A DNA stretch of 57,860 nt, taken from NCBI GenBank assembly GCA_903918045.1, contig CAIXCY010000004.1:1-57860 (forward strand), given 5' to 3'. The notes below the pieces were generated by a model, which was given only the letters and a program-made list of their open reading frames with translations, was not told the origin of the DNA and did no database searches. Numbering within the stretch: position 1 is the first letter of the stretch; each line of letters opens with the position of its first letter. A program made the position numbers and the translations under genes. Source of the stretch: an uncultured Bacteroidia bacterium. GTDB lineage: Bacteria > Bacteroidota > Bacteroidia > Bacteroidales > Prolixibacteraceae. Positions 22,712-45,513 of this stretch are shown in pieces.

Positions 22712-22773
22712 TAAAAATATAATTGCCAGATGCCAAAAACTTCAGCTATTTTGGATAATGCACATTAAATATT
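22712..22773 (-). promoter_or_regulatory. Conserved regulon promoter, copy A (esterase/phosphoesterase/ceramidase operon)
   Basis: On the minus strand: AATATTTAATGTGC (plus 22760-22773), 16 bases, GAAGT (22739-22743), 19 bases, then TATTTTTA (22712-22719), a near-consensus Bacteroidota -7 box. The same blocks with exactly the same spacing occur at copies B (32863-32924) and C (45452-45513). A CAA at the same offset inside the 16-base spacer is also shared. The ATG lies about 70 bases downstream. GAAGT sits where the -33 box is expected, and AATATTTAATGTGC is probably an activator site. Confidence 0.75.
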
Positions 22774-22864
22774 AACTCCCTCTGGAGTTTCATGTAAATA
22801 CCCCCCAGTGCAAACCAGGGGGTGACAAACGATACCGCGCGAACACAGAAACCCTGTCGGGGTT
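22774..22864 (-). repeat. REP-like cluster of three hairpins
   Basis: Three short perfect stems follow one another: AACTCC-CTCT-GGAGTT (22774-22789), ACCCCC...GGGGGT (22800-22823) and AACCC-TGTCG-GGGTT (22850-22864). This hairpin-spacer-hairpin layout resembles REP-like intergenic elements. It directly abuts the operator block of promoter A. The rest of the 355-bp gap up to the GH20 start (22865-22998) is AT-rich and holds the GH20 promoter, with no other recognisable feature. Confidence 0.55.
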
Positions 22865-22998
22865 GCCCAAAAAACAAAGTTGATTATACATAAAATATTT
22901 ATTTGAAAAAATTAGTGAATACTTAAGCAATAATCGCGTATTCAGAATTTCCACAAAATCATTTACTTTTATCCCCTAACTTAATAGAGACTCACACT

Positions 22999-24663
22999 AT
23001 GAAATTTCTCCATTTAATAGCACTGCTTATTCTGCTGTTCGGTGCTAAAACTCAAATATCTGCCCATGAAGAGAGCCCCTTATCTATCATTCCGGCACCC
23101 GTTTTGCTGACACCTCATACGGGAAACTTCACCTTTTCAACTAAGACAAGGATCATCGTTTCGCCGTTGAACAGTGAGACTCGTTTATCAGCGGACCTCT
23201 TTGCTCAATTGGTAAATAATCCCTCGGGTTATTCCCCTGTAATTTCAGAAGGAAAAAAACCGGCAACCGGTTCAGTATTGATGATTCTTGACAATTCGAT
23301 AAAAAACGACGAAGGATATACTCTTGAAGTTACTCCCAAAGGGATAACCGTTAAAGCAAAAACGGCGGTCGGATTGTTTTATGCTGTCCAAACCATACGT
23401 CAGTTACTGCCTGTCGAAGTTGAAAAATCGGCTTTAGTCCATAGAATAGAGGTCACTGTTCCGGCTTGCACAATTGCCGATGAACCACGCTTTGCCTATC
23501 GCGGTATGCACCTCGATGTGGGGCGTCATCTGTTTCCGGTTGCAAGTATTAAACGCTATATCGATATGCTGGCGCTTCACAAGATGAATACCTTCCACTG
23601 GCATCTTACTGAAGATCAGGGATGGAGAATTGAAATCAAAAAATATCCCAAACTAACCGAAATTGGCGCTTACCGCAAGGAAACCGTAGCCGGTGCACAG
23701 AAAAAAACAAATAATACCTTCGATGGAAAACCGTACGGTGGATTTTATACCCAGGCTGAAGTGCGCGAGATCGTAGCTTATGCCGGCACGAAATTCATAA
23801 CCGTCCTTCCCGAAATTGAAATGCCGGGCCATGCCATTGCAGCTTTAACCTCCTACCCCGAATTATCCTGCACCGGAGGTCCATTCGAAGTGCGGAAATT
23901 ATGGGGAGTCGATGACGATGTTTTCTGTGCAGGAAACGAGCAGGTTTTCACCTTTCTTGAGGATGTTCTGACAGAAGTAATGGACCTTTTCCCTTCAAAA
24001 TATATCCATATCGGGGGGGATGAATGTCCGAAGAAACGGTGGGAGAAATGTTCAAAATGCCAGAAACGGATCAAGGATGAAGGACTCAAAAACGAATTTG
24101 AACTTCAGAGTTATTTCATTCGTCGGATTGAGAAATTTGTAAGCTCAAAAGGGAGAAATATAATTGGATGGGATGAAATCCTCGAAGGGGGACTGGCACC
24201 CGGAGCAACTGTAATGTCGTGGCGAGGTGAAGAAGGCGGCATCGAAGCAGCCAAATCGGGCCACAATGTAATTATGACTCCCGGAAAATATACCTATTTC
24301 TGCTATTATCAAAGTGAGAACCATGACGGACAACCACTTGCCCTTGGCGGATATGTGCCGCTCGAACTGGTTTACGGCTATAATCCGACACCAAAGGAAC
24401 TGACTGCAGAAGAGCAAAAGCATATCCTTGGTCTTCAGGGATGCCTATGGAGCGAGCAAATTCAGACCCCGGAGATACTAGAATTTATGGCCTATCCCCG
24501 CACCTTTGCAATCGCTGAAACCGGATGGACTGCAGATAATCAGAAAAACTTTGAGGATTTCGTTACCCGCCTCAAGATTTTGAATAAAAGATATGATGCC
24601 ATTGGAATAAATTATTTCAATGGAGAATACAGGGATACAAAAGCGCTGAAAGAGAAAAAATGA
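22999..24663 (+). CDS. GH20 beta-N-acetylhexosaminidase
   Basis: The protein has 554 residues and a signal peptide (MKFLHLIALLILLFGAKTQI), so it acts outside the cytoplasm. Residues of about 30-160 form the GH20b domain. The catalytic TIM barrel starts at FAYRGMHLDVGRH (about 171) and contains FHWHLTEDQGWRIEIKKYP. The catalytic pair is D341-E342 in HIGGDECPKKRW, as expected for substrate-assisted removal of terminal beta-GlcNAc or GalNAc. A late WTADNQKNFEDF matches the family end, and there is no C-terminal extra domain. It is divergent from the esterase operon and shares with it a 355-bp regulatory gap. With GH29 and GH92 enzymes nearby, N-glycan or glycoconjugate trimming is plausible. Confidence 0.93.
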   Translation: MKFLHLIALLILLFGAKTQISAHEESPLSIIPAPVLLTPHTGNFTFSTKTRIIVSPLNSETRLSADLFAQLVNNPSGYSPVISEGKKPATGSVLMILDNSIKNDEGYTLEVTPKGITVKAKTAVGLFYAVQTIRQLLPVEVEKSALVHRIEVTVPACTIADEPRFAYRGMHLDVGRHLFPVASIKRYIDMLALHKMNTFHWHLTEDQGWRIEIKKYPKLTEIGAYRKETVAGAQKKTNNTFDGKPYGGFYTQAEVREIVAYAGTKFITVLPEIEMPGHAIAALTSYPELSCTGGPFEVRKLWGVDDDVFCAGNEQVFTFLEDVLTEVMDLFPSKYIHIGGDECPKKRWEKCSKCQKRIKDEGLKNEFELQSYFIRRIEKFVSSKGRNIIGWDEILEGGLAPGATVMSWRGEEGGIEAAKSGHNVIMTPGKYTYFCYYQSENHDGQPLALGGYVPLELVYGYNPTPKELTAEEQKHILGLQGCLWSEQIQTPEILEFMAYPRTFAIAETGWTADNQKNFEDFVTRLKILNKRYDAIGINYFNGEYRDTKALKEKK

Positions 24664-24666
24664 AAC

Positions 24667-24693
24667 ATTGAAAGATTGAAAGATTGAAAGATT
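24667..24693. repeat. Short tandem repeat ATTGAAAG x3
   Basis: Three perfect 8-bp units ATTGAAAG followed by ATT start right after the GH20 stop codon. The array is non-coding and may mark slippage. A second small duplication, ATGAAATCTA at 24736 and 24758, brackets the start of the next gene. Confidence 0.7.
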
Positions 24694-24757
24694 TTCATTA
24701 AATTTAGGTTGTAAATACTGAATGCTATTGAGACTATGAAATCTAAAACTTAATACA

Positions 24758-25816
24758 ATGAAATCTATAGCTATAACCACTTTTTTTATCGTGATATCGA
24801 TAGGATTAACAGCACAAACTGTTATAACCTATTCCAATAATGGCTTGATCCCGGGAGATTCCTATAATTTTAAAGAGATTCAATTTCCCGATCCGGGTAG
24901 TGCCGGACCAAATCAGATCTGGGATTTTTCAAAGGTTCAATTTACAGGCAAGACCCCTGCTGGAAACCTGCAATCCCCCGCTATTCCTAAAACGGATGGT
25001 ATTGGCGACTATAATTTATCGCTGCTTGAGAACGGTTATGATTACTTTTTAGATTGTACAGAGACTGATTTACAAGAACTTGGATATGTGAATAGCGACC
25101 TTAAAATAACCCTCAAATATTCTGATCCGGTGGTAAAGATGAAATATCCATTTTCGTTTGGAGCCTCATTTACAGATCATTTCATAGGTATTGGAACCTA
25201 TTCTGAAACAAATACAATTGATTTCTTTGGCGATCATACCGTAACTGCAGATGCTTACGGCACCCTTATCCTGCCTGACCGGACTATCGAAAATACCCTT
25301 CGTGTTAAATCGGTAAAAACCGGCATTCAAATTAATATGTGCGGTACAGCCGATGTTAACATCACCAAATACAACTGGTATGCAAATGGGTACCGGTATC
25401 CGGTGTTAAGTCTCACTACGGTTGAAAACCACCCAAACATAGGGATGCCCCAAATCACGCAGACAGCATTTACAAATACGCAACAGCCAAATAAAAGCAT
25501 AACAATTCCAGGTGTCAAAGCCGGAATTAAAGCCGCTGATCCATCCAAATCAAATGTTACTGTCGTTATTTCGCCAAATCCGTTTAATGACAAACTGACC
25601 TATCAGTACGATCTTGGTGTATCGACAACTGTTTCAATCGAACTTTACAGCATAACCGGCAAAAATATCAGCTGGATTGTTAAAAATCAGAATCAACCGG
25701 CAGGATTACAAACCGGGGAACTTAAGGCCTCGACCTATGACCTGACACCAGGAGTCTATTTCATGCGATTTACTTTTGATAGGCAGATTGTTATTTGCAA
25801 AGTGGTTAAACTATAG
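24758..25816 (+). CDS. Secreted protein with type IX secretion C-terminal domain
   Basis: The protein has 352 residues with a signal peptide (MKSIAITTFFIVISIGLTAQ). The central part (about 25-265) is a beta-rich domain with no recognised family. The last 80 residues (VVISPNPFNDKLTYQYDLGV onward, with VSIELYSITGKN and TYDLTPGVYFMRFTFDRQIV) match the Por_Secre_tail/T9SS type A sorting domain. The protein is therefore likely exported through the type IX system and released or attached at the cell surface. The chosen ATG is preceded by another ATGAAATCTA at 24736 that opens only a five-codon frame. It follows GH20 by 94 bp. The function is unknown. Confidence 0.75.
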   Translation: MKSIAITTFFIVISIGLTAQTVITYSNNGLIPGDSYNFKEIQFPDPGSAGPNQIWDFSKVQFTGKTPAGNLQSPAIPKTDGIGDYNLSLLENGYDYFLDCTETDLQELGYVNSDLKITLKYSDPVVKMKYPFSFGASFTDHFIGIGTYSETNTIDFFGDHTVTADAYGTLILPDRTIENTLRVKSVKTGIQINMCGTADVNITKYNWYANGYRYPVLSLTTVENHPNIGMPQITQTAFTNTQQPNKSITIPGVKAGIKAADPSKSNVTVVISPNPFNDKLTYQYDLGVSTTVSIELYSITGKNISWIVKNQNQPAGLQTGELKASTYDLTPGVYFMRFTFDRQIVICKVVKL

Positions 25817-25840
25817 AAGCCAGATTGGATACAATTCATA

Positions 25841-25882
25841 TTCCGGGAGTAATATCGTTTTATTACGATATTATTCCCGGAA
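25841..25882. terminator. 18-bp hairpin terminator between convergent genes
   Basis: TTCCGGGAGTAATATCGT (25841-25858) pairs with ACGATATTATTCCCGGAA (25865-25882) with a six-base loop and a single G-T pair. It lies between the plus-strand end at 25816 and the minus-strand end at 25889, so it probably stops transcription from both sides. Confidence 0.7.
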
Positions 25883-25888
25883 TCACTC

Positions 25889-27823
25889 TTAATTTCCAGG
25901 AAGAACTCTCATCGGTTTTGGATCAAGGAGAAGGTATTCATTTGAATGTATAATTCCCATTCTGCGGTCCATTTCTTTTTCTACCGGGTCTGTACCCTGC
26001 AGCTTAAGCCTTTTACGAACTTCCCGCCTTAACCACCAGTAACCCGAATTCCAGGAATACAAGTGATGCCCATGCGGTTTTCCGGTTACTGTGCTGATCG
26101 ATTCATGGAATGCCGGCATAAATGCAAGTTCCTTTTCCATCCGCCATACCAGCTGGTCGTCTACCCATTTGGGATCCATTCCATGAATTAAACCATCCAG
26201 ATAATTCGCTGCATCGTTTAAAAACCAGGAGCCTCCATTCGTATAAACACCACTGTGGCCATCGAGCAAATCACCGTTTGCCTTAGAGATTACGCGCATT
26301 CCATAGGGCGTTTGAATACGCATCGTAGTTTCAAGATGCTTTTTTACAATCTCGTCGGATAAAAGCTTTCTTCCAAATACGACAAAAGTCAACACCTCAC
26401 CATACAGGGCATCCTGGCCAATATTTTCCTGCTGTTTAAGACTCGTGGCCATATAACCGCACTCCTTATTAAACATCTGTCGGTAACCCGCAATCGCTCT
26501 GTCAATTTCAATATCGGTTACCGGAAAGCCAAGTTCTTTTGCTGCCATTAAGGCCCCGCAATGAAAGCCCTGATCGGAGGACGGAGAATCGTCATCCTCA
26601 TAATTTAGCTGATCGTGATAGGTTTTAAAGCATTTTAATTCCGGCTTTAGCCGTGGTGGTATATACAATCCATTAACCTCATGTTCACGGATAAAGCGAT
26701 AAGCTCTTCCCACAGTGCGCATATCGGGAGTTCCCCCGGCCCGTTTAACAAGTAATGACCAGATCAGATAGTACTGAGAATTATCCTCATAGTTCAACCG
26801 TTCGAAAAAGATACCGGCAAGCGCCTCCCTGTCGTATTTCACATCATCAAGCCCCCTGCTCATATAAAAACCGTCAGAGACCCATTGTTTCCAGCCATAG
26901 CCCACGCCGGAAATGAAAATATAATCACTTTCGGGCCTCCCCAAATTCCGGCGCAACAAGAGATATGAGGTATTCCGCAGAATTGCCTCAATGCCTGATT
27001 GATTAAAACCCCTGGCATTTGCCAGCGCTAAATGTGCCGCTAACTGAATGTCGTATAGCGATTTCACTTCAGATGAGAAAATCCAGGTCGTCCATGACTG
27101 TCTTTCACCCTGTTCGATATGTTGCCACCCATCAAATGAAGTGCGATAAACAGAGGTTGCATCGACATTGGGTGGAATCATCACACTCCTGCGCACCGAT
27201 CCATCACCGTTGCTCAATGAGAGGGTATTGTTCTCCTTGTCAAAATTCATAAAACTCCGGTTTTCCCACAACCCTGGTGAATCTCCGATAATTCCGTAAA
27301 GCTGATTCCCAATACGACATCCCATAAACGGGAAAGTCTGTCCGGCTACCCCTTGGCCAAACTCAGGACCGGAACATCCGGGTGAATATTTTGCTGAGGA
27401 TTGTTCTTCTCCCATAAAAGAATAAAAAGTTCCACCCGTAGGAGCTTTCCACCCAAAATCAAAATAATAACGTTGATCGGACTCCGCTTTTACAGTAACG
27501 ATCCGCTCAATTAACCCGGTGGTAATTTCCCGGTAAGATTCAGAAATCTGAAGGCCGTTTCCTTTTCCACCCAAAAGAGTTAAAATTCCATTTTTGCCGA
27601 TACTTTGTTTTTTGTAAACGACCTCCATTTGACCTGAAGGCTGTTTAACCAGTAAACTTCCATTTTGTATAATTGGTGAAAAAATGGCTTTCCCTCCATC
27701 TTCAATCCGGACGGCCAAACATGAATGCAATGGGTAAATGACAGGATGTATGGCACCTATTGCAGCATCAATAGAGCAAAGGATATGAAAGCCTAACAGC
27801 AAAAAGCAACTAAATGACTTCAT
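25889..27823 (-). CDS. Secreted (alpha/alpha)6-toroid protein, probable glycosidase or lyase
   Basis: The protein has 644 residues and a signal peptide (MKSFSCFLLLGFHILCSIDA). The first 260 residues look like a beta-sandwich with aromatic patches. From about 270 on, the sequence is helical (IEAILRNTSYLLLRRNLG, YYLIWSLLVKRAG, NYLDGLIHGMD). Motifs DDDSPSSDQGFHCGALMA and HHLYSWNSGYWWLRREVRKR are consistent with an (alpha/alpha)6 toroid of the kind found in glycosidases and polysaccharide lyases. No family could be assigned and no catalytic residue is certain. It ends the minus-strand group that starts with the toroid-GDPD fusion, 68 bp after a TolB-like gene. Confidence 0.5.
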   Translation of the reverse strand: MKSFSCFLLLGFHILCSIDAAIGAIHPVIYPLHSCLAVRIEDGGKAIFSPIIQNGSLLVKQPSGQMEVVYKKQSIGKNGILTLLGGKGNGLQISESYREITTGLIERIVTVKAESDQRYYFDFGWKAPTGGTFYSFMGEEQSSAKYSPGCSGPEFGQGVAGQTFPFMGCRIGNQLYGIIGDSPGLWENRSFMNFDKENNTLSLSNGDGSVRRSVMIPPNVDATSVYRTSFDGWQHIEQGERQSWTTWIFSSEVKSLYDIQLAAHLALANARGFNQSGIEAILRNTSYLLLRRNLGRPESDYIFISGVGYGWKQWVSDGFYMSRGLDDVKYDREALAGIFFERLNYEDNSQYYLIWSLLVKRAGGTPDMRTVGRAYRFIREHEVNGLYIPPRLKPELKCFKTYHDQLNYEDDDSPSSDQGFHCGALMAAKELGFPVTDIEIDRAIAGYRQMFNKECGYMATSLKQQENIGQDALYGEVLTFVVFGRKLLSDEIVKKHLETTMRIQTPYGMRVISKANGDLLDGHSGVYTNGGSWFLNDAANYLDGLIHGMDPKWVDDQLVWRMEKELAFMPAFHESISTVTGKPHGHHLYSWNSGYWWLRREVRKRLKLQGTDPVEKEMDRRMGIIHSNEYLLLDPKPMRVLPGN

Positions 27824-27891
27824 TCTTATAAAATCAATTTTTCTTGTTATTTATTAGATTTTTGAAAAGTAAGAAATTCTAATTGAATCTA

Positions 27892-29124
27892 TCATTGCAA
27901 ACTATTTACGGGCCGCCAGTGTCCCCACATTGCGGCCGAGCCTTTTACCAGATTTGTAACCTGCATTTCAGCGTGATCCGATAATCGCATCACACAAATC
28001 TGCCGAACCCCATCGCGTTTAGACCCGTATAACAGCCAGTTACCATCGGGGGAAGGTTCGGGGTGATAATGCAACGTTCCCGGTTTTGATCTGGTGAGCT
28101 GCTGTACATTACCCTCCAGATCAGACTGAAATAACTCTACAGTCGCGCCAACCTGTACGGTGTAAAAAACGGATTTACCATCAACTGACCATACCGGTAT
28201 ATCGCTGCTTCCTTCATGAAAATCGTAAACATCCAGAAATTCAATGGACCCTTTATAACCACCCCGATCGGCAAGTTTTTTCAGTCCTGACCCATCGGCT
28301 CTTACCAAATAAGGGTTGCACTTCGTATTTCGTTCCCCGCTTACAAATAATAACCAGTTTCCATCACATGACCACTGGGGTCCAAAATTAAAATGATTTC
28401 CTGTAATGATTTGGTTGGCATTTGAACCATCAGAATTGGCAATAAAAACCTGATAATCTTTATGGTATGCAATCCTTTTCCCGTCTTTTGAAGCATTGAA
28501 TCCATATGTGAATTCTTTCGATCCATTGGTCAGGTCAACTTTATTCCGGCCATCGAGGTCCATCTTAAACGGGTGCGAACTATCATTGATCAATGCTGTA
28601 AATCCCAGTTTTGACGAATCACCCGGCCAGTAAAACAGACCACTATTATAGCAACTAATTCGCTCAATAGCAGTTACGTTAAAAATTCTTCCGGTTTTGA
28701 TGTCGACAAGGCAATTGTCGTATAAAACCTCACCCTTAATATTGCGAAATTGCTTGTGCTCCTCTTCCCAGCATGCATTTTGAGCGCTTTTCCACCCTCT
28801 GCCAATAATAGCTGTTTTCCCATCGGGCGACCAACCTGCGAACTGTGTCATTGAATCCTCTCCCTGAACCAGGGATTCAGCAAGGACTTTTTTGCCTGTA
28901 CCATCCGGCTTTATAACCATAGCCCGCATGGTAACGACATTGGCCTGCCGTCCTCCAGGGAGATTTGTTTGTAACTCAGTGTAACCGATCAGCAGGTCCG
29001 GAGGTGTCAGTGAAAGTGAGGGTTGTCCGTTTGCAAGGAATACACTTTGAGAAATAGTAAATCCGATAAAACAGTCCCGTCCAATTTTCGGAATTCTTTT
29101 ACAAAATACGCTTAATCGATTCAT
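27892..29124 (-). CDS. TolB/PD40-type beta-propeller protein
   Basis: This 410-residue protein is made of TolB-like PD40 repeats: FAGWSPDGKTAIIGRG, FNASKDGKRIAYHKDYQVFI, PQWSCDGNWLLFVSG, VPVWSVDGKSVFYTVQ-like and PEPSPDGNWLLYGSKRDG. The overall order resembles oligogalacturonate-lyase-like and TolB C-terminal proteins. The N-terminus (MNRLSVFCKRIPKIGRDCFI) is not a clear signal peptide, though a weak hydrophobic stretch follows. The true start might lie slightly downstream, or export may use another route. It sits between the GH29 gene (101-bp gap) and a toroid protein (68-bp gap). It may bind or process a sugar ligand, but catalytic residues are not evident. Confidence 0.6.
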   Translation of the reverse strand: MNRLSVFCKRIPKIGRDCFIGFTISQSVFLANGQPSLSLTPPDLLIGYTELQTNLPGGRQANVVTMRAMVIKPDGTGKKVLAESLVQGEDSMTQFAGWSPDGKTAIIGRGWKSAQNACWEEEHKQFRNIKGEVLYDNCLVDIKTGRIFNVTAIERISCYNSGLFYWPGDSSKLGFTALINDSSHPFKMDLDGRNKVDLTNGSKEFTYGFNASKDGKRIAYHKDYQVFIANSDGSNANQIITGNHFNFGPQWSCDGNWLLFVSGERNTKCNPYLVRADGSGLKKLADRGGYKGSIEFLDVYDFHEGSSDIPVWSVDGKSVFYTVQVGATVELFQSDLEGNVQQLTRSKPGTLHYHPEPSPDGNWLLYGSKRDGVRQICVMRLSDHAEMQVTNLVKGSAAMWGHWRPVNSLQ

Positions 29125-29225
29125 TTAAAAATAATTAAACATAAGGCAATTTGAATACTATCCACGAAAAAGCTGAATTTGCATGGCAAATCATATTGTT
29201 TAAATGTACCTTACCCATTGCGATC

Positions 29226-30506
29226 CTATCGGTAAGCCGGAACCGACTGGCGCGGCTCTTCTTCAAACGTTAGTTCAATAACGCTTAACCACGGATCAGG
29301 TGGATACTGCGGCATATCGTGAAGCCAAACCCGGTCACCTTTTTGCTCTATCCGGGCATATTGACCCGTTGCCAAAAGGCAGGCAGACTTAACCTTGGAA
29401 CCACACCAGGCAATAGGCACCGTTGACCCGGGCCAGCGCTGAATCAGCAGATAAACCCTATCCTTAACCCGTGTGGCCATTCCCAGGTTTGGAGCTCCAA
29501 CGGGCGAAGGACCGGCGCCGTAAACCGCTTTTCCGTTAACTTTCATCCATTTGCCGATATTGCTTAGAATTTCAGCCTGTTCCACAGGAATAACTCCTTC
29601 TCCGTCAGGACTGACATTCAACAGGAAATTACCACTTTGTGAAGAACATGATGCAAGTAACCTCAAAATCTCGTGAACAGGTTTATAATTCCGGTCATAC
29701 CGGGCATATCCCCAGGTCCGGTTCATACAAAAACACGACTCCCATGGCCGGGGTTGCGCGGTTACCACATTTTCAGGAGTCGAGAAATCGCCCGGAAGTG
29801 AAGCGCGGTCATTGACCAGGATATCGGGTTGCAGCTTTCGCGCTAAATCGAGAATCTTCTGCGATTGCCACCTGATCGGATCATCCGGATTACAACCATC
29901 AAACCACAAAATATCAACTTTGCCATAATTGGAAAGCAATTCCTTTACCTGATCATAGGCCTGATCTGCAATCAGTTTCATCGTTGGTTCAGAAACCGAA
30001 GTACCAATCGGCAAAACTCCCGGAAAATGCCAGTCCATCAGGGAGTAATAAAATCCCATGCGCATACCCGCTTCATGGCAGGCATCAGCAAACTCCTTAA
30101 CCAGATCGCGTTTTGCACCTGTTTTAACGGACGTAAAATCGGAAACTTTGCTGTCAAACAGGCAAAAACCATCGTGGTGACGGGTGGTAAGAATGACATA
30201 TTTCATACCTGCCTCCTTCGCCTTTGCAACCCACTCTTTGGGATTAAATTCCTTCGGACTAAATTGATCTGCAAGTGCCGCATATTCTGAGATGGGGACA
30301 TGCTCCTGGTACATCAGCCACTCTCCGCGTGCCGGGATTGAGTAGACACCCCAGTGAATAAACATTCCAAACCTGGCCTCCTGCCACCATTGCATATCGG
30401 GATGGTTCTGAACGGTTGGGACCGGAGCCTTTGAATTTTGGGCGAATATATTGCATGTCCAGACAAATGCAATTAAGGTCAGGAGCAATCTGAATTTAGT
30501 CTTCAT
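29226..30506 (-). CDS. GH29 alpha-L-fucosidase
   Basis: The protein has 426 residues and a signal peptide ending near MKTKFRLLLTLIAFVWTCNI. The barrel shows the GH29 signature order: WWQEARFGMFIHWGVYSIPA, YVILTTRHHDGFCLFDS, MRMGFYYSLMDWH, then the nucleophile D203 in VDILWFDG. The general acid is not fixed in position in this family and was not assigned. The length is near that of compact GH29 proteins without carbohydrate-binding domains. The enzyme releases alpha-L-fucose from glycoconjugates outside the cytoplasm. It lies 159 bp downstream of the toroid-GDPD gene, separated by a repeat element, so it may be transcribed with it or from its own promoter. Confidence 0.92.
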   Translation of the reverse strand: MKTKFRLLLTLIAFVWTCNIFAQNSKAPVPTVQNHPDMQWWQEARFGMFIHWGVYSIPARGEWLMYQEHVPISEYAALADQFSPKEFNPKEWVAKAKEAGMKYVILTTRHHDGFCLFDSKVSDFTSVKTGAKRDLVKEFADACHEAGMRMGFYYSLMDWHFPGVLPIGTSVSEPTMKLIADQAYDQVKELLSNYGKVDILWFDGCNPDDPIRWQSQKILDLARKLQPDILVNDRASLPGDFSTPENVVTAQPRPWESCFCMNRTWGYARYDRNYKPVHEILRLLASCSSQSGNFLLNVSPDGEGVIPVEQAEILSNIGKWMKVNGKAVYGAGPSPVGAPNLGMATRVKDRVYLLIQRWPGSTVPIAWCGSKVKSACLLATGQYARIEQKGDRVWLHDMPQYPPDPWLSVIELTFEEEPRQSVPAYR

Positions 30507-30665: not shown

Positions 30666-32810
30666 CTATTTCCTGTTATTTAAAAATTCAATCAGCCCCT
30701 GGGGGTTATCGGTCTGAATTCCGTCAGTTCCCCAGCTAATGATTCTTTCCCACTCCTCAGGAGTCTCCTTTTTATCATCTACAAACACTTTAGCATTAAA
30801 GGAATGAGCCGTTTTAACAAAACTTTCGGTGAGTTGGCCCATATCACTGGCCAAAATCCTTGGTCGGACCTCGCCTGCTAAATCCGGAATATTTTTCTCA
30901 GCTCCCGGATCGGGCATCGGAATACATTTATAGCATAAAGATTGCAACAGCTTTACCTGATCTATTTGTGATGGATAGATGTACCAGACAATAGCACGCT
31001 CCATATCATATTTATGAATGATCTTCAATAATTCCGGCACCAAGGGCTCCTTCAGATCGAGATAGATCCCAATCTGACCACGGCATAATTGCAGAATATC
31101 CTCAATCCCTGGGATACGGGTATTCTTCCACTCCCCACCCAATTTTTCGCCGATATCCAGTTTTTTGATCTCCTCAAGGGTGAAATCCTTAACCTTTCCT
31201 TTGGTTCCAACGACATAATTATCTACTGTTGAATTGTGTACACTTACGATTCTTCCATCTTTTGTAGCTCTTGTATCAATTTCTACGAAATCGCAACCGA
31301 TATCAATAGCTTTCTGAATCGCAGCCAATGAGTTTTCCGGAATGCCGATATGAGCCCCGCGATGGGCAATCACATAGGTATTTCCATGTCTTGGTTTAGG
31401 GAAATAATCCTGAATGGCAGCCTTTGTTTTACCACCCGGAGTTTTGGCTGTCGCCCATTCAGGAACTGCATTGATAGCATCCATGAAATTGTGTATTACA
31501 TCGGTATGACAATCTTCAACCCATCCGCCCTCTCTAAGCCAGTGCCATTGACCGGTCTGGTCACAAACGATTCCGTCCTCACGAATGAAATAAGTTATCC
31601 ATGAGAGGTTTCTGAATGCGATATCCCGGTATTGTTCACCACCGCCGGCGGCATAAAACATTGCTGTTACAGCGCCAAAAGTTGAATTAATTCCACCCCA
31701 GGGATTCCGGTCGGTATCCTGCTCCCCAACAACTGTTACACCACCGGGCCGTTCACTTCCCATATTCCGGATCGCAAACTGAATGCATTGCTCCGCGTGT
31801 TCTTTCCATTGGGGATCAAGTTTCTCTTTCTTTTCGATCAGGTACCGTGCCATATTCAGTGGGGTCCAGGCATTGCGGTTATCTTCCTTTGGCTGGTCCT
31901 CAAAGAACTGAACCCAGAGGCAATGATCAGGGTCTTCAGGAGCTTTGAACTGGAAATTGGTAATCCAACTCCATAATTCAGTGCGAGGATTTTTAAATTC
32001 AGAGTATCCCATTTCAAGAAGGCTATCCCAGAGCCTCAGGATATAGACCATATTTCCACTCCGTTCCCCCTTGTATTTTCCCGTGATGGCATCAACCCTG
32101 AAGGGCCATGGAGAGTGCATCGCATCACCCTTTCGCATATTTCCTGATAAGACCTGTGCATTATGAACAGCCTGATCGAGATAGCGTTGATCTTTAGTAA
32201 CCTTAAAGAGTTCCAGAAGTGCAAATCCGGCAATACCCCCCTTGTCGGGCTCGATTGTATTCTTTCCACAATCGGCATCGTTCTGGGAACATTGTGTCAG
32301 CGGCCACTCTCCATAAACACCGGTTGAACGGGTAAACCCGGGATACATCCCTTCGTTGGGTGTATTCGCCTCTTTAACAAGACAATCGCCCATCTTTTTA
32401 GCAATTTCAAGCACCTTCGGATTCGATTTCCCTTTGTAATTCCAGTATTTCAGGTAAGAGATAATGCCCATTCCGTCCTGGGTTGCAGGGATAAAATCGT
32501 TGCGGTATGGTTGATAATTTTCATCCATAAAAGTAAAACAGACGTATGACGGATAGCCATGATCATTTACCGGCGCTTTCATAAACCAGTTCATCTCACG
32601 CTCAATAGCATTATCCCAGGTGGTCCATGGAGTTAGTTTGGGTCCGGTTTTTTCATCGTCATGGATTGCCTCTGTATTGTCATCATAAACGGCATCGTGC
32701 CAGCCGATTTTGGATGGCATATAGTTGAACACAGGTTGGGCCTGGGAACCGAAAGTCAAAGATATGACTGCGATAAGGAAGAATAAAAATCTACAAAGGA
32801 GGGATTTCAT
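30666..32810 (-). CDS. Fusion of (alpha/alpha)6-toroid domain and glycerophosphodiester phosphodiesterase
   Basis: The protein has 714 residues and a signal peptide (MKSLLCRFLFFLIAVISLTF). Residues of about 25-460 are a helical toroid with WTTWDNAIEREMNWFMKAP, TQDGMGIISYLKYW and GGWVEDCHTDVIHNFMDAI, resembling AGE-like or six-hairpin sugar enzymes without a clear family. Residues of about 475-714 are a GDPD domain. HRGAHIGIPENSL supplies the first catalytic histidine, DFVEIDTRATKDGR the metal-binding E-x-D, VHNSTVD the second histidine, and GIQTDNP closes the domain. GDPD enzymes cut glycerol-phosphodiesters. A fusion to a sugar-type domain suggests a phosphodiester-linked glycan or glycolipid substrate. 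Its promoter is regulon copy B. Confidence 0.78.
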   Translation of the reverse strand: MKSLLCRFLFFLIAVISLTFGSQAQPVFNYMPSKIGWHDAVYDDNTEAIHDDEKTGPKLTPWTTWDNAIEREMNWFMKAPVNDHGYPSYVCFTFMDENYQPYRNDFIPATQDGMGIISYLKYWNYKGKSNPKVLEIAKKMGDCLVKEANTPNEGMYPGFTRSTGVYGEWPLTQCSQNDADCGKNTIEPDKGGIAGFALLELFKVTKDQRYLDQAVHNAQVLSGNMRKGDAMHSPWPFRVDAITGKYKGERSGNMVYILRLWDSLLEMGYSEFKNPRTELWSWITNFQFKAPEDPDHCLWVQFFEDQPKEDNRNAWTPLNMARYLIEKKEKLDPQWKEHAEQCIQFAIRNMGSERPGGVTVVGEQDTDRNPWGGINSTFGAVTAMFYAAGGGEQYRDIAFRNLSWITYFIREDGIVCDQTGQWHWLREGGWVEDCHTDVIHNFMDAINAVPEWATAKTPGGKTKAAIQDYFPKPRHGNTYVIAHRGAHIGIPENSLAAIQKAIDIGCDFVEIDTRATKDGRIVSVHNSTVDNYVVGTKGKVKDFTLEEIKKLDIGEKLGGEWKNTRIPGIEDILQLCRGQIGIYLDLKEPLVPELLKIIHKYDMERAIVWYIYPSQIDQVKLLQSLCYKCIPMPDPGAEKNIPDLAGEVRPRILASDMGQLTESFVKTAHSFNAKVFVDDKKETPEEWERIISWGTDGIQTDNPQGLIEFLNNRK

Positions 32811-32862: not shown

Positions 32863-32924
32863 CAAAAATAGTTACCCTTTCGATCAATAACTTCTGTAAT
32901 CTTGGGAAAAGCACATTAAATATT
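32863..32924 (-). promoter_or_regulatory. Conserved regulon promoter, copy B (toroid-GDPD fusion)
   Basis: On the minus strand: AATATTTAATGTGC (plus 32911-32924), 16 bases, GAAGT (32890-32894), 19 bases and TATTTTTG (32863-32870), an exact Bacteroidota -7 box. Blocks and spacings equal copies A and C. The ATG at 32810 lies about 50 bases downstream. The rest of the 320-bp gap (32925-33104) is AT-rich with no other recognisable feature up to the terminator. Confidence 0.78.
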
Positions 32925-38785: not shown

Positions 38786-38807
38786 AATTCTTCATTATAA
38801 ATCCTTA

Positions 38808-39869: not shown

Positions 39870-39945
39870 AAAATTCAAGGTAATTAGAAGGTATGGAGTA
39901 CCGCAAGATTTGTAGAAAAGATGAGTTCGCATTTTAAGGAGGTGG

Positions 39946-40003
39946 AGCATACCGCTATATTAATCTTTCAAAAGTTTCATCGAAGTAGATATTGCGGTAT
40001 GCT
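39946..40003. repeat. 15-bp inverted repeat AGCATACCGC...GCGGTATGCT
   Basis: AGCATACCGCTATAT (39946-39960) and ATATTGCGGTATGCT (39989-40003) are reverse complements with one mismatch, separated by 28 bp. They lie 77-134 bp upstream of the DUF3089 start and downstream of GH92 copy 2. It may be a regulator-binding site for the former or a terminator stem for the latter. No T-run was seen. Confidence 0.55.
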
Positions 40004-40095
40004 GTAACTTGTTGGAATATAGTTTATCCCTGATCTATAACTATAAACGGTGCTCTGAACCTTTGATTGCTCACCCTCAGATATTTAATTCAAAA

Positions 40096-42447
40096 TCATT
40101 GATGGACCGGCAGATTAGTCATCTCAAAACGCAAAGTCCCGCCTTTGGCAATCTCTGAATGAACAAGCCAGTAACGATCAAGAAGAACATCATTCAACCA
40201 TACTGTCTTGACATATTTATTTTCCGGACCATAATTATTTGCAATAATAGTCAAAACTTTATCTCCAATTTTTATCGATGACTTTTGAAACAACGGGGCT
40301 CCGATCTGATACCTGTCTGATCCGGCTACCGGATAGATTCCCATTGAACTCCAGATATACCACGATGACAAAGTCCCCGCATCATCATCACCGTCAATCC
40401 CTTCGTAGCCGGCACCATACTTATTCTCAAGAATCCAGCGAACCCATTTCTGAGTCAGATCGGGTCGTCCTGCAGTATTAAAGAGGTAAGCGGAATGCAG
40501 ATCCGGCTCATTCCCATGCCAGTAATACGAACCAGGGCTGAAGGTTCCCCGCTTCGGATCGGAAAGGGCGAAGAAATCGTTAAGCTCATTCACAAAATAT
40601 TCCCTGCTCTTAAAAAGAGATATCAACCCTGCAGGATCAAAGAAAAGGGCATATCTCCATTGCAATGCACTTCCTTCAACATAAGCGTTGGTATATTCAT
40701 GGTCAAAATCGAGATAGGTTAATTTTAAAGGGTCAAATTTCTTCACAAATTCGCCTGCAGTTGTCTTCGGGTGAAAATACTGTGTCGCAGGATTCCAAAT
40801 ATTTCGGTAAAACTGCGAATGATCGGCAAATAACTTCACATCATCTTTGTGACCCAGGGCATTTGCAAGCTTCGAAATGGCATCATCGGCATAGCAATAT
40901 TCGAGGGTCTTGCTCACGGACTTATCCATCAAATCATCGGGACAGTATTTATATTTTAAACAATCAGCCATTCCTCCCCTTGGATTGTACCCCTCCTTCC
41001 TCACTTCAATACCCAGGGCTGCCTTACGCATTGCCTGATAAGCAGTTTCTGCATCGAAATTTTTAATCCCTTTAAGATATGATTCAGTGATCACAATATC
41101 GGCAGAGGCGCCCAACATGGAGCCGGTATAACCACCACCCGAAGGCCAACGTGGCAGTGAACCACCCTGCTCACACATTTTCACAAGCGATACCATCATA
41201 TTGCGCTGCTCTGTTGGTGCGATAAGCGTATAAAGCGGATGAATAGTCCGAAAAGTATCCCACAATGAGAGATCGGTATAATAATTAAAGGCTGATGTTT
41301 GATGAATCTTCTTGTCAAAGCCAAGGTAGTCGCCATTTACATCGTTAAAAATGGTGGGCATCTGCAAGGAGTGATAAAGCGCGGTGTAGAATATATGTTT
41401 CTGATCATCTGTTGCCCCTTCAATCTTTATGGTTGCAAGTTTATCTTCCCAGAGCTGTTTGGTACGGCTTACGATTGTATCAAAAGTGACTACGCCGGCT
41501 TCTGCGTCCAGATTTGCACGTGCATTTTCAATGCTCACATACGAAATTCCTAGTCTTAGTTCAACAACCTGATCCTTTCCGGCTTTATTAAAACTGAGAT
41601 CTGCCCCTACTTTATCCCCTGATACATTGGTTTGGTTTTTGAAGATTTTTTCTCCGGACCAAAGGTCATGTCCTGTGAAGGGTTCACTAAACCTGGCCAG
41701 AAAATAAGCTTTTAATCCACCATAACGACCCGAAAATGAGTCGAATGTTTTTATCGTTCCGGTAACTTCATGCTTCTCCGGATAGACATTCACCGCTCCA
41801 TCAGCAGACCGGGCATGCCCCAATCCGCTTGAGACATCAATCAGGATATGGGGGACCTCATCTTTGGAAAACGTATAGCGATGGACTCCAACGCGGGCGC
41901 TTGCAGTCAACTCTGCCAGTATTCCCTGCTCCGGAAGCTTTACCGCATAATATCCCGGAAAGGCTACTTCATCTCTATGCGAAAATTCACTGTAGTGCCC
42001 ATTCCTGTAATCCTTTTGACTCTGTTCGCCAATAGAGGGTACCACTCTGAAGAGTCCTCCTTCATAGGCGCCCGTACCCACGAGCCGTGTATGACTGAAT
42101 CCCATTATCTTATGATCGCCATAATAATAGCCTGCAGTACTGATACTTCCCCCCTCTGCCCACAATGGATTCATGAAAAATTCGGTATCCGGGCTTAACC
42201 TCACCATCCCAAACGGGACGGTTACCCCTGGAATATCATCCGCACTCGTATAGGTTGGAAAACCACCGGTACCAATGAAAGGATTAACCCATTTACCAAA
42301 TGCTCCCGGTTTGGCAGAAACCACCATCTGCCCCTGCCTAACCCCTACGGTATGCTGATATCTCAAAAAGAATCCAAAGATCACAAGCGCACCAATGGTC
42401 ACGAGTAATAGGATCGTTAGCAACAGGTATTTTAATATTTTCCTCAT
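40096..42447 (-). CDS. GH92 alpha-mannosidase-like protein, divergent and membrane anchored (copy 2)
   Basis: The protein has 783 residues. Instead of a cleavable signal it has a long N-terminal membrane helix (about residues 5-28). VNPFIGTGGFPTYTSADDIP begins the GH92 N-domain with an insertion relative to the other copies. YVEGSALQWRYALFFDPAG keeps the candidate acid E590. The next motif is GNEPDLHSAYLFN rather than GNEPxHH, and the base region reads GIDGDDDAGTLSSWYIWSSM rather than GNEDCGQMSAWY. It therefore belongs to a different GH92 branch, probably with another linkage or substrate. The CHB_HEX and PA14 extensions are absent. It follows GH92 copy 3 by 34 bp and is probably driven by promoter C. 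Confidence 0.88.
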   Translation of the reverse strand: MRKILKYLLLTILLLVTIGALVIFGFFLRYQHTVGVRQGQMVVSAKPGAFGKWVNPFIGTGGFPTYTSADDIPGVTVPFGMVRLSPDTEFFMNPLWAEGGSISTAGYYYGDHKIMGFSHTRLVGTGAYEGGLFRVVPSIGEQSQKDYRNGHYSEFSHRDEVAFPGYYAVKLPEQGILAELTASARVGVHRYTFSKDEVPHILIDVSSGLGHARSADGAVNVYPEKHEVTGTIKTFDSFSGRYGGLKAYFLARFSEPFTGHDLWSGEKIFKNQTNVSGDKVGADLSFNKAGKDQVVELRLGISYVSIENARANLDAEAGVVTFDTIVSRTKQLWEDKLATIKIEGATDDQKHIFYTALYHSLQMPTIFNDVNGDYLGFDKKIHQTSAFNYYTDLSLWDTFRTIHPLYTLIAPTEQRNMMVSLVKMCEQGGSLPRWPSGGGYTGSMLGASADIVITESYLKGIKNFDAETAYQAMRKAALGIEVRKEGYNPRGGMADCLKYKYCPDDLMDKSVSKTLEYCYADDAISKLANALGHKDDVKLFADHSQFYRNIWNPATQYFHPKTTAGEFVKKFDPLKLTYLDFDHEYTNAYVEGSALQWRYALFFDPAGLISLFKSREYFVNELNDFFALSDPKRGTFSPGSYYWHGNEPDLHSAYLFNTAGRPDLTQKWVRWILENKYGAGYEGIDGDDDAGTLSSWYIWSSMGIYPVAGSDRYQIGAPLFQKSSIKIGDKVLTIIANNYGPENKYVKTVWLNDVLLDRYWLVHSEIAKGGTLRFEMTNLPVHQ

Positions 42448-42481
42448 AACAGCTAAAATTTATTGTCTGAATTTACCAGAT

Positions 42482-45403
42482 TCATTTATCGGTAAACAAC
42501 TCCTCTGCCTTAATCTCATGTTTTTCCATTCCGGGACCTGACCAGCTAACCTTTAAAGCCTTACCACCGCCACACTGAAAATATTTCACCAAAATTCTGT
42601 GCATTCCTGCTTTAAGCCCCACTCTTCCGGGCTCCTCCACCGCGCCATGATTGGCATCATTTTCAATTAGTTCGGCACCGTCAATATAAAGTTTGCTTCC
42701 ATCGTTAGAGATCAGGTAGAAATTGTAGAGTCCATCTTTGGGTACATTTATGTAACCAGCATAACGATAGCCATAATAAGTTTCTCTCGGAGCAATTTTA
42801 ATGCTGAATATATCAATGGTACCTGAACTTATCGGTTTGCAGATTTCAAAGTCATCGGTTGTAACAAAAAACCGTTCAAAATAATCATACGCTAATCCCT
42901 GTTTTACGTTTACATTTCCCGCTGATTCGCTTAAAACGGCCTTCTTAAACTCAATTGGAATTGAAATACTGGCCATTTTATTCTTTTCGAATGATTTCAT
43001 CTTCAACACACAAGATTCTTTAATCGTAATTGGGGATGAGTAAGCTGTTGATCCCTCAACAGGTTCAGAACCATCCAGTGTGTATCGGATGGCTGCATTC
43101 TTGGACTCGCAGCCAAGTTCAGCGGTGGTTGACTCTTCGAATAATGTTTCCCCCGATTTAATATACGGAAGCATTGTAACAGGGTCACCATTTTCGGAAT
43201 AAGGACGATTCATTGTTCCGGCTCCCCACTGTTCGTTCGGTCTTGGCCCCATTTCGAAAACAAGTTCGGAGCCATTCATTATATCATCGTGTCGGAGATA
43301 GGAGTTTGAATATTTCTTCCCGTTTAAGGTTGCTGACTGAATATATTTATTTTCGGGTGAATTATGATTTGCTTTCACAACAAATTTCTTTCCATTCCCG
43401 GGTTTAATTGTCGCCTTTTCGAACAAAGGGGAACCAATTGCATAGATTTTCTGTCCCGGAGCGACTGAATAAAAGCCTATTGCACTTAAGATATACCACC
43501 CCGACATCTGTCCGCAATCTTCATTTCCCGCCAGTCCCTCAGGTTTGTCTCTATAAAGTTCGGTTAGGATTTGGCGAACTAATTTTTGTGTCTTCCAGGG
43601 CTCTCCCACATAATCGTAAAGATAGGCCAGGTGATGGCCCGGTTCGTTCCCGTGCCAGTACTGGCCGATCGAGCCGCGCTCGTCGCTACCCTTTTTTAGC
43701 GTAAACAGTACATCAAGCCATTTTGAAAACTTCTTGTCACCACCTTCCAGTGCAATCAGTCCCTTTGCATCATGCGGAACAAACATATACTGATACGCAT
43801 TCCCTTCCGAATATGCGGAGTTAACCAGGGGATCAAACGGAGTTAGCCAGCTGCGATCCATCTTCTTACCCCGCATAAAACCGGTGGAACCATCAAACAC
43901 ATTTTCGTAATTGTGGGCGCGCTGGTGATAGGTCAGATAGTCCTTTTTCGCTCCCATCTCTTTTGCCATTTGTGAAATACACCAGTCGTCATAACAATAT
44001 TCGAGCGTTTTTGAGACTGACTCTCCCTGGCGATCACACGGGAGAAACCCAATTTTTTTATAGTATTTGAGCCCCAGTTTATCCAATTCTGCACTGTGTT
44101 TTATGGCTGTGAAAGCTTTTGTAAGATCATAATTGCGTATTCCTTTCATATAGGCATCAACAATTACAGGAACAGAATGATAGCCAAGCATATCATCGGT
44201 ATAGTTTCCGGCAAGGGGCCACATTGGAAGCCTTCCACCATCATCATAAATCTGCAAGAGGGTTTTGACAAAGTCGTTGGTACGTTTATGATCGATAATC
44301 GTAAATAAGGGATGCAAGGCACGAAAGGTATCCCACAGCGAAAAGACTGTATAATTTGTAAACCCCTTTGCCACGTGGACCTTATGATCTGTCCCGCGGT
44401 ATTTGCCATCAATATCCATAAACAGGTTCGGATTTAAAAAGGCGTGATACATCGCAGTATAGAAATTCTTTTGGTCTTCAGCCCTACCCCCCTGGACATC
44501 GATTTTCGCCAGTTCATCGTTCCATGCTTTTTTCGAACCGGCAACAATTCCGTCAAAATTCCAATCTTTGATTTCGGCACTTAAGTTTTTCCGGGCACCA
44601 TCGACACTAACTGCAGATGTTCCAACCTTTATGAATATTTTTTCATCCTTTTTCGTCTTAAAATTGACTGAAGCTTTTACATTTTTTCCACTTGCCTCTG
44701 ATTTACCTGTTAAAATAATATCATCAATGGCCAGATCAACGGATAAAAAAGGTTTGGAAAACCTTGCTACAAAATAGACATACTGGTCCCATGCCCATCC
44801 ATGAGAACGGCGTAAACCTTCAATCTCGGTATCGCTGACTTTTCTGATGTATAACTCTTCGGCACCTCCCGGATGTTGAAGATCGATAATTACATGTGCG
44901 CTATCCGATTGAGGGTATGTATATTTATGAAATCCACACCTTGGTGTAACAGTAAGTTCGGCCTTAACCTGATAATCCTTCAGAAAGACAGCGTAATAGC
45001 CCGGAGAGGCTGATTCCTGTTTATGATCATAAGTTGATTTATATCCTGACTTTCCCTTCTCAATACCGGGAATTAGGTTGATCTTTCCGACAGTGGGCAT
45101 AAACAGGATGTCACGGTATTCCGGTTCTCCCACTCCGCTTAGATGGGTATGAGAAAATCCCAGAATGGTAGAATCGGGATAATAGTAACCTCCGCAAATT
45201 CCGCCACCGGTTAATTTTGTATCGGGGCTAAGCTGGACTGATCCAAATGGAAAGGCTGCACCGGGGTAGGTATTTCCGTCTGCGGCAGTCCCCATAAAAG
45301 GATTCACGAGTTTGCTATAATCCGGGGTCTGACCATGGAGCTGCAGTATAAAACTGGATAATAAGCATAAAGAAAGCAATGCCAAAAATTTCTCGGATTT
45401 CAT
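42482..45403 (-). CDS. GH92 alpha-mannosidase with CHB_HEX-like and PA14 domains (copy 3)
   Basis: The protein has 973 residues with a signal peptide ending near SSFILQLHGQ. The GH92 core is complete: VNPFMGTAADGNTYPGAAFP and FGSVQLSPDT at the start, YSEGNAYQYMFVPHD near 530 with the candidate acid Glu, GNEPGHHLAYLYD near 583, and GNEDCGQMSGWYILSAIGFY near 625. A chitobiase-C-like segment (YTLDGSEPVEGSTAYSSP) near 770 is followed by a PA14-like domain (YRYAGYINVPKDGLYNFYLI) to the C-terminus, probably for glycan binding. Trimming of terminal alpha-mannose outside the cell is expected. It leads a two-gene GH92 operon and has promoter C directly upstream. The kinase gene cluster ends 119 bp further upstream. 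Confidence 0.93.
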   Translation of the reverse strand: MKSEKFLALLSLCLLSSFILQLHGQTPDYSKLVNPFMGTAADGNTYPGAAFPFGSVQLSPDTKLTGGGICGGYYYPDSTILGFSHTHLSGVGEPEYRDILFMPTVGKINLIPGIEKGKSGYKSTYDHKQESASPGYYAVFLKDYQVKAELTVTPRCGFHKYTYPQSDSAHVIIDLQHPGGAEELYIRKVSDTEIEGLRRSHGWAWDQYVYFVARFSKPFLSVDLAIDDIILTGKSEASGKNVKASVNFKTKKDEKIFIKVGTSAVSVDGARKNLSAEIKDWNFDGIVAGSKKAWNDELAKIDVQGGRAEDQKNFYTAMYHAFLNPNLFMDIDGKYRGTDHKVHVAKGFTNYTVFSLWDTFRALHPLFTIIDHKRTNDFVKTLLQIYDDGGRLPMWPLAGNYTDDMLGYHSVPVIVDAYMKGIRNYDLTKAFTAIKHSAELDKLGLKYYKKIGFLPCDRQGESVSKTLEYCYDDWCISQMAKEMGAKKDYLTYHQRAHNYENVFDGSTGFMRGKKMDRSWLTPFDPLVNSAYSEGNAYQYMFVPHDAKGLIALEGGDKKFSKWLDVLFTLKKGSDERGSIGQYWHGNEPGHHLAYLYDYVGEPWKTQKLVRQILTELYRDKPEGLAGNEDCGQMSGWYILSAIGFYSVAPGQKIYAIGSPLFEKATIKPGNGKKFVVKANHNSPENKYIQSATLNGKKYSNSYLRHDDIMNGSELVFEMGPRPNEQWGAGTMNRPYSENGDPVTMLPYIKSGETLFEESTTAELGCESKNAAIRYTLDGSEPVEGSTAYSSPITIKESCVLKMKSFEKNKMASISIPIEFKKAVLSESAGNVNVKQGLAYDYFERFFVTTDDFEICKPISSGTIDIFSIKIAPRETYYGYRYAGYINVPKDGLYNFYLISNDGSKLYIDGAELIENDANHGAVEEPGRVGLKAGMHRILVKYFQCGGGKALKVSWSGPGMEKHEIKAEELFTDK

Positions 45404-45451
45404 ATCATTACGGTTTAATCAATTGCGAAAATCAGTTGGTTGGAAGATCAC

Positions 45452-45513
45452 CAAAAATACAATTGGAAATCACTCAATACTTCTTTTATATTGAATAAAG
45501 CACATTAAATATT
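45452..45513 (-). promoter_or_regulatory. Conserved regulon promoter, copy C (GH92 pair)
   Basis: On the minus strand: AATATTTAATGTGC (plus 45500-45513), 16 bases, GAAGT (45479-45483), 19 bases and TATTTTTG (45452-45459), an exact -7 box. Architecture is identical to copies A and B. The ATG of GH92 copy 3 at 45403 lies about 48 bases downstream. The operator block starts only 8 bp after the stop of the histidine-kinase gene. Confidence 0.78.

Follow-up and report, generated by a model that had tools for sequence, protein, structure and literature searches.

Putative operator-promoters of a probable AraC-controlled regulon before GH92, GDPD and esterase operons in uncultured Prolixibacteraceae

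Three elements of one layout and the genes behind them

The stretch of DNA analysed here (the window, 57,860 nt) belongs to contig CAIXCY010000004.1 of assembly GCA_903918045.1, the genome of an uncultured Prolixibacteraceae (Bacteroidales) bacterium, labelled G000 below. It carries three promoter-like elements of one layout, each placed before a run of hydrolase genes, which an earlier sequence-only reading had proposed as the promoters of a new regulon. The window holds the pattern AATATTTAATGTGC-N16-GAAGT in three perfect copies, on the minus strand only (22739-22773, 32890-32924 and 45479-45513), where that reading had placed it, and no additional match is found when up to three mismatches are allowed. 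Chance recurrence had been called very unlikely, and indeed 100 dinucleotide shuffles of the window gave on average 0.03 matches at up to three mismatches and never reached three. The continuation GAAGT-N19-TATTTTTR and a common CAA in the spacer were read in all three sequences. The first ATG follows 71, 52 and 48 bp behind the 62-bp element, within the 45-75 bp previously given; at site 1, a TTG stands slightly closer to the element than the ATG of the esterase gene. The last block had been assigned to the Bacteroidota -7 box, and TATTTTTG does match the housekeeping consensus TAnnTTTG given in a passage of PMC7366714. The elements and their parts, with putative half-site limits, are as follows.

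22712..22773, minus strand: predicted promoter/operator 1, before the esterase operon, exact pattern match; half-site A 22757-22773, half-site B 22736-22752, -7 box TATTTTTA 22712-22719
32863..32924, minus strand: predicted promoter/operator 2, before the toroid-GDPD gene, exact pattern match; half-site A 32908-32924, half-site B 32887-32903, -7 box TATTTTTG 32863-32870
45452..45513, minus strand: predicted promoter/operator 3, before the GH92 pair, exact pattern match; half-site A 45497-45513, half-site B 45476-45492, -7 box TATTTTTG 45452-45459

The genes behind them, all on the minus strand, were identified by Pfam matches.

21462..22643, minus strand: glucuronoyl-esterase/AXE1-like esterase, first behind site 1 (GCE_fung 1.8e-9, AXE1 1.7e-8)
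18741..21452, minus strand: phosphoesterase (PF04185) A (1.8e-9)
17333..18712, minus strand: DUF3748/PD40 (TolB-like propeller) protein (9e-36)
14602..17430, minus strand: phosphoesterase (PF04185) B (6.8e-9)
13017..14576, minus strand: neutral/alkaline ceramidase-like protein (1.3e-8, 34.4 bits against a cut-off of 32.1)
30666..32810, minus strand: fusion of about 470 N-terminal residues with a GDPD domain, behind site 2 (GDPD 3.3e-27)
29226..30506, minus strand: GH29 alpha-L-fucosidase, next behind the GDPD gene (3.7e-92)
42482..45403, minus strand: GH92 alpha-mannosidase with PA14, behind site 3 (1.3e-180)
40096..42447, minus strand: GH92 alpha-mannosidase, second behind site 3 (6.5e-152)

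The transcript from site 1 would extend as far as the ceramidase-like gene, and the GH29 gene would share a transcript with the GDPD gene. For the protein behind site 2, described earlier as a toroid-GDPD fusion, the GDPD half was confirmed (best Pfam stretch at residues 483-575, with GDPDs of the PDB aligning from residue 477); the N-terminal part, which that reading took for an alpha/alpha-toroid, gave no Pfam match, and the structure model has a pLDDT of 48.6.

Directly upstream of site 3 (45522-50364) lie genes for two histidine kinases of 447 and 1168 amino acids (aa), the latter with several PAS domains and a receiver. A 76% relative of the larger kinase adjoins a GH92 cluster in G002 (L075:16989-20000). 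The two kinases were considered as regulators of the sites and set aside, as they have no DNA-binding domain and are not found beside this GH92 gene in G011.

Sites in the genome and the genus

In the whole genome of the source organism (5.36 Mb, 281 contigs), seven matches were found at up to three mismatches, against none for the backward pattern. Four exact matches and one with a single mismatch all lie 26-77 bp before a gene, and the two matches with three mismatches are at the level of noise. Two of the five stand outside the window:

C12:1119-1153: exact match, before a fucose-permease-like MFS gene
C25:18439-18473: one mismatch, before a further GH92 gene

A profile built from these five sites (R1) was searched in 18 genomes of the genus and gave 48 sites at E<1e-6 in 13 of them. 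Two weaker sites, in G012 (7.6e-4) and G009:C145 (0.0025), bring the total to 50; all other matches listed up to E 0.05 were taken as noise. With two exceptions, these 50 sites directly precede a homologue of a reference gene of the source genome: 17 GH92 genes in four paralogue groups, 11 esterase operons, 11 MFS genes, eight GDPD genes (that of G009 without the N-terminal part) and one membrane protein gene. As for the exceptions, G010:C451 runs off its contig, and G015:C379 precedes a calcineurin-like phosphoesterase gene that heads DUF3748, phosphoesterase and ceramidase-like genes. Counting the source genome, counterparts stand before the orthologous esterase gene in 11 genomes (site 1), before GDPD genes in eight (site 2) and before the orthologous GH92 gene in ten (site 3). 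Scattering of the pattern inside genes or ahead of unrelated genes, which would have spoken against the proposed regulon, was thus not seen in these scans of the genome and its relatives, and the proposal is supported. The list of genes predicted to be controlled has to be widened: the esterase, GDPD and GH92 operons remain on it, and MFS, aldolase, GH2 and SusC/SusD operons join them.

Not every regulon gene has a site in every genome. No site was found at E 0.05 for the GH92 genes GH92-970 and GH92-c of the window; their orthologues in G002 have one. The MFS gene of G012 had no site above the matrix threshold used.

When 60 relatives were scanned with the three-mismatch pattern, exact and one-mismatch matches among those listed fell only within the genus, and two listed matches with two mismatches lay outside it. 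An exact scan for the core and the -7 box in 84,980 species genomes, which may omit the source genome, found 31 stretches in ten metagenome-assembled genomes (MAGs), all of this genus and titled uncultured Bacteroidia, Bacteroidia or Prolixibacteraceae. Judging from their isolate names, among them Kiruna, Umea, Loclat and Lac Pavin, they come from lakes and groundwater.

High identity among the copies might also be expected of a mobile repeat or of recent duplications with no regulatory role. This explanation has next to no credibility here: in the aligned genus sites only the blocks are kept and the stretch from GAAGTATTTG to the -7 box has otherwise diverged, and the copies precede orthologous genes in many genomes. 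An RNA element was likewise set aside; a scan of the window with Rfam gave no match at gathering scores, and the consensus fold (-0.4 kcal/mol) supports no RNA structure. Both results speak against a mobile repeat as well.

The MFS protein, scanned as its G011 orthologue, has FucP and GluP as its closest models, below their cut-offs. The next genes of its operon in G011 encode a phosphohexomutase, an RmlD-like reductase, a DegT aminotransferase, a galactokinase-like GHMP kinase, an inositol-dehydrogenase-like GFO/IDH oxidoreductase and a member of the 3-keto-disaccharide hydrolase family, followed by a PIG-L-family gene. For the PIG-L-family protein (G007 orthologue scanned), the closest model is bacillithiol deacetylase, again below cut-off.

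Site architecture

The three blocks into which the sequence-only reading had divided the element are not its natural units. A matrix of the 48 genus sites is conserved at positions 1-17, 20-23, 25-26, 31-41 and 54-62, strongly so at the last of these, and shows no conservation at 42-46. Within it, the best direct repeat has an offset of 21 (z 2.88, p(max) 0.033, or 0.053 unnormalised), and an inverted-repeat reading did no better than shuffled columns (p 0.64). Predicted sites of hybrid two-component systems (HTCS), which carry an AraC-type helix-turn-helix (HTH), have a mean period of 21 bp in Bacteroides, as stated in a passage of PMC3878776. The -7 box of the elements matches the consensus, and the -33 position carries GAAGT instead of TTTG. 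GAAGT probably closes a second half-site, which would lie 21 bp after the first, at the -33 position.

The fixed 19-bp spacing could also suggest an extracytoplasmic function (ECF) sigma factor that reads GAAGT as -35 and TATTTTTG as -10, and for Bacteroides a passage of PMC3878776 links pairs of ECF sigma and anti-sigma factors to glycan genes. Such a factor is very improbable, given that the last block fits the housekeeping -7 box (consensus as in the cited part of PMC7366714) and not a distinct -10, that conservation extends over most of the 30 bases upstream of GAAGT, more than a sigma factor on its own requires, and that GAAGT varies to CAAGT, TAAGT, TAGGT or GAAGC at some sites.

A candidate regulator of the AraC family

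The candidate regulator is a one-component AraC-family protein of 283 aa encoded outside the window (G000:C230:95874-96722). In G004 this protein matches HTH_18 at 4.7e-21 and HTH_AraC at 2.4e-12. The source genome has 24 HTH_18 matches and G007 has three; G004 and G016 have a single one, which in both is the same AraC protein. Both genomes are 2.9 Mb in size and 97% complete, have three sites each at E<1e-6 and, as close kin, count as one lineage. HTCS regulators are AraC-like (a passage of PMC3878776); with one HTH_18 match each, the 283-aa protein, no HTCS regulator was found in G004 and G016. A search of 43 genus loci with AraC, LacI, GntR and LuxR sequence patterns returned nothing, and the LacI pattern, when repeated, found none.

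Orthologues of the AraC protein (77-100%; the G012 copy is cut by a contig end) are present in all 14 genus genomes with sites, and the four without sites have no AraC match above 46%. As support for the regulator, this co-occurrence (14/14 vs 0/4) is weak. In a LeuRS tree of 17 of the 18 genomes, the four AraC-less genomes form one branch (96/94), and the MFS gene is absent from these four and from two more. Outside the genus, araC orthologues of 56-85% were found in ten other genera of the family.

The araC gene is divergent from a DHDPS-family aldolase gene in those genus loci that reach far enough, and also in many relatives. The nearest solved structure of the aldolase is 4xky, and its best NCBIfam model is DapA, below cut-off. 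Thirteen araC loci from 11 genus genomes were read (not G007, G010 and G016). In 12 of them, the gap between the two genes holds a site of the same layout pointing toward the aldolase gene, 57-76 bp from the araC start; in G011 it reads AAAATACAATGCAAATAGAACAAGATTATAGAAGT-N19-TTAATTTG. In 11 of the 12 (all but G009), nothing else in the locus matches better than this gap site, and the one locus that lacks it is that of a third araC copy in G006. Among out-of-genus loci with an araC of at least 63% and a divergent aldolase gene, a site was recognised by eye in 23 of 24.

To compare the window sites with this block, 24 out-of-genus gaps were aligned without the motif, and the most conserved 62 columns were taken as an independent matrix. 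The window sites came out as ranks 1-3 of 115,598 positions (site 3 first, site 1 second, site 2 third). None of 500 column permutations placed any site in the top 3, the backward matrix ranked them beyond 45,000, and other blocks of the alignment placed no site or one there if they overlapped little with the chosen columns, and two or three if they overlapped much. In the 43 genus loci (1.3 million positions), the same matrix had 44 of the 47 distinct known sites in its top 48 and all of them in its top 68. The window sites thus resemble the block beside araC. A ranking with araC-side sites chosen by the window motif was discarded as circular; with random stretches chosen in the same way, all three window sites also ranked 1-3 in 100 of 100 runs.

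Some further features of these loci were recorded. High-scoring extra sites of the family matrix lie at L088:2789-2850 (G006:C250) and L108:6741-6802 (G009:C145), the latter about 90 bp before a gene for a 1116-aa SusC-like protein. G006 has three araC copies (L202, L203 and L204, that is C162, C512 and C147), one of which (81%) stands in an unrelated neighbourhood with neither aldolase gene nor site. In most genus loci read, GH78 and another GH92 gene follow behind araC, a neighbourhood that favours AraC as the regulator. At some sites of G012 (L107:13573-13634 and L281, that is G012:C323 and C376) and G015 (L098:3091-3152, that is G015:C379), AACGYT replaces AATGTG. A joint change of regulator and site was considered on this ground, the AraC proteins of G012 and G015 being 77% and 84% identical to that of G004, and was dropped as evidence: the pattern had been written post hoc, and G009 (81%) keeps AATGTG.

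Related sites in other genera

A gapped profile (R2) was made from 21 out-of-genus aldolase sites and searched in 22 genomes, with 150 candidates per genome scored. It recovers the aldolase site in all 18 araC carriers, by construction in 16 of them but not in G000 and G081. Eighteen further sites reach E<=0.001, in 11 of the 18 carriers; in the four genomes without an araC orthologue (G001, G008, G023 and G061) none does, the best being 0.018. On the source genome, R2 scores C25 at 0.18, C12 at 0.43 and a non-site stretch of C12 at 0.71.

The genes behind 22 R2 sites in 20 loci were read, comprising 17 of the 18 strong sites (not G081:C97) and five weaker ones. Behind nine of them stands a GH2-type gene, in six cases divergent to GH92, with GH2 domains scanned in G000 and judged elsewhere from the resemblance of the first residues. 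The G000 gene encodes a GH2 protein with Ig_GlcNase and mannosidase Ig domains; genes for a ROK kinase and an MFS protein come next. Seven sites precede SusC-like genes, one of them cut short (a SusC/SusD pair was scanned for G000:C30 only), and two precede genes for PKD proteins (scanned for G000). The remaining sites stand before one gene each for a BNR_2 protein and for proteins of 760, 436 and 463 aa; the 436-aa protein gene lies upstream of a 423-aa membrane protein family.

Operons behind R2 sites also include a GDPD gene in G027 and a ceramidase-like gene in G152, each 57% identical to its relative in the window; both operons are led by GH2 and divergent to GH92. The link between mannosidases and phospho- and acyl-ester hydrolysis that the sequence-only reading had drawn is strengthened by these operons, and since they share it, a link of mannosidases with phosphodiester, amide and ester hydrolysis is not peculiar to the source genome. 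In that genome, the araC-side spelling is found before a SusC/SusD pair (L348:679-5728, G000:C30), a GH2-ROK-MFS-DegT operon (L347, G000:C57) and a 760-aa/GH57 pair (L349, G000:C75). Because these operons carry it, the source genome seems to use two site spellings. More generally, the comparison suggests that the spelling of the site family differs between genera.

One regulator for all sites?

Our preferred reading, to which we give a probability of roughly 80%, is that the window elements are operator-promoters of one regulon under the one-component AraC-family regulator, whose genes would serve to break down mannose-rich glycans along with the phosphate and ester groups on them. Several observations weigh against it. 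R2, when aligned locally, gives the window sites weak scores (E 0.0047 for 45513 and 0.12 for 22773), it does not list site 32924 up to E 1, and its whole-genome search lists no window site for G000 among the 150 candidates scored. A 38-column matrix gets 40 of the 47 known sites into its top 48, with the last at 123. The direct repeat is only suggestive, at p 0.03-0.05 after all offsets were tried, and in the family matrix an offset of 14 outscores 21, which comes second (p(max) 0.057). In four of 35 out-of-genus loci (araC 66-69%, no aldolase found), the 400 bp ahead of araC hold no site, and seven of the 35, with an araC below 61%, have at best a diverged one. For the GH92 and GH78 genes that follow araC, no separate site passes the thresholds used. 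The co-occurrence of AraC and sites amounts to one event because the four AraC-less genomes share one LeuRS branch, and these four also lack the GDPD gene. The N-terminal Cupin_2 match of the AraC protein (2.6e-4, 21.1 bits) is under the Pfam cut-off of 27.2, and regulator families other than HTH_18 were checked by crude patterns in the fetched loci only.

The weak R2 scores would also be explained if a different transcription factor bound the genus-specific sites and AraC controlled the adjacent aldolase operon only. The two types of site differ at positions 12-21 (TGCTTTATCC vs CAAATAGAAC in G011), and araC is not beside the site-bearing GH92, GDPD, esterase and MFS genes in the loci read, except that a 66% relative of the esterase lies near it in G009. 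We regard a separate factor as unlikely, since the non-circular matrix ranks the window sites 1-3, the spacing to the -7 box is identical at both site types, and G004 and G016 each have a single HTH_18 protein, with no other candidate found by crude patterns in 43 loci.

From the computed sites, their conservation, the genes behind them and their likeness to the araC-side block, we infer how a single AraC regulator would work, from binding and dimer formation to activation, inducer and direction of evolution. The regulator, probably as a dimer, would bind a pair of half-sites in head-to-tail order at a distance of 21 bp, AATATTTAATGTGCTTT and AATATTA..GAAGTATT. The latter would occupy the place of the -33 box, with a standard Bacteroidota -7 box (TAnnTTTG) 19 bp past its GAAGT. 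The inducer-bound regulator would then recruit RNA polymerase, and the elements, which are arranged like AraC-type activated promoters of class II, would belong to that class. A protein placed over the -33 region could also block polymerase, and AraC itself can act as a repressor. Repression, or action in both directions, is quite unlikely at these sites in our judgement, as the promoter looks weak on its own because GAAGT replaces TTTG at -33.

Under AraC activation, the ancestral target would probably be the aldolase operon of the DHDPS family that diverges from araC. In other genera of the family, related sites stand before GH2-type operons and SusC/SusD pairs, and in the lake genus the GH92, toroid-GDPD, esterase/phosphoesterase/ceramidase-like and FucP-like MFS operons carry what would be a sharpened version. 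For the inducer, the neighbouring DHDPS/NanA-family aldolase gives a hint of a sialic-acid-like or 2-keto-3-deoxy sugar, although its best NCBIfam model, below cut-off, is DapA.

What the regulon might act on is a more speculative matter. One possibility, which we consider unlikely, is a dedicated programme that takes apart a eukaryotic glyco-phospho-lipid conjugate of lake algae or fungi, such as a glycosylphosphatidylinositol-type anchor or mannosyl inositol-phosphoceramide, including its N-glycans. Mannosidases would strip the glycan, GDPD and phosphoesterases would cut phosphodiesters, the ceramidase-like enzyme would open the lipid, and the PIG-L-like and inositol-dehydrogenase-like enzymes of the MFS operon would process glucosamine-inositol. 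If so, one AraC sensor would join the harvest of sugar, phosphate and lipid from a single molecule. Against this stand the breadth of the families, the PIG-L protein being closest to bacillithiol deacetylase, and a ceramidase match barely over its cut-off. Common control of GH92, GDPD, phosphoesterases and the ceramidase-like enzyme makes the question of a shared substrate testable.

Comparison with known systems

AraC-type regulation of sugar genes is already known, and the present regulon would be a new case of it; among the open-licence PMC articles listed in searches, no title or abstract opening describes it. Its closest parallels are the HTCS regulons of Bacteroides, such as HTCS_Man-1/2/3 for alpha-mannans, which, in a passage of PMC3878776, have an AraC-type HTH, mannosidases among their targets and predicted direct repeats of the period given above (for HTCS_Man, two 16-bp sites with a 5-bp spacer). 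The regulator here differs in being a one-component cupin-AraC protein, with a weak cupin match, not fused to a hybrid histidine kinase, and its regulon is scattered across several loci. With the AraC/XylS activators of carbon metabolism (AraC, XylS, MtlR) it shares a length of 250-300 aa, a C-terminal AraC HTH and, here as a prediction from sequence, a dimer on consecutive half-sites near the core promoter (features taken from part of PMC4514859); the promoter differs in having a Bacteroidota -7 box and not -10/-35. SusR-like regulators also control glycan genes through direct repeats, but their predicted repeats are 67 or 77 bp apart and the regulator is a membrane protein, according to PMC3878776. 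By analogy, the comparison suggests that a one-component AraC protein may do for glycan genes what HTCS and ECF systems do in Bacteroides. The analysis provides a candidate regulator that can be named, together with a site model and the genes of a predicted multi-locus glycan regulon in uncultured lake Bacteroidota.

Recurrent neighbours

In several genomes, two proteins recur as neighbours of the regulon. One is a membrane protein of 423 aa whose only Pfam match, to DUF3464, is weak, and the other is a protein of 463-474 aa without a Pfam match. Examples are as follows.

L077:16814-18085: 423-aa membrane protein
L361:4368-5759: 463-474 aa protein

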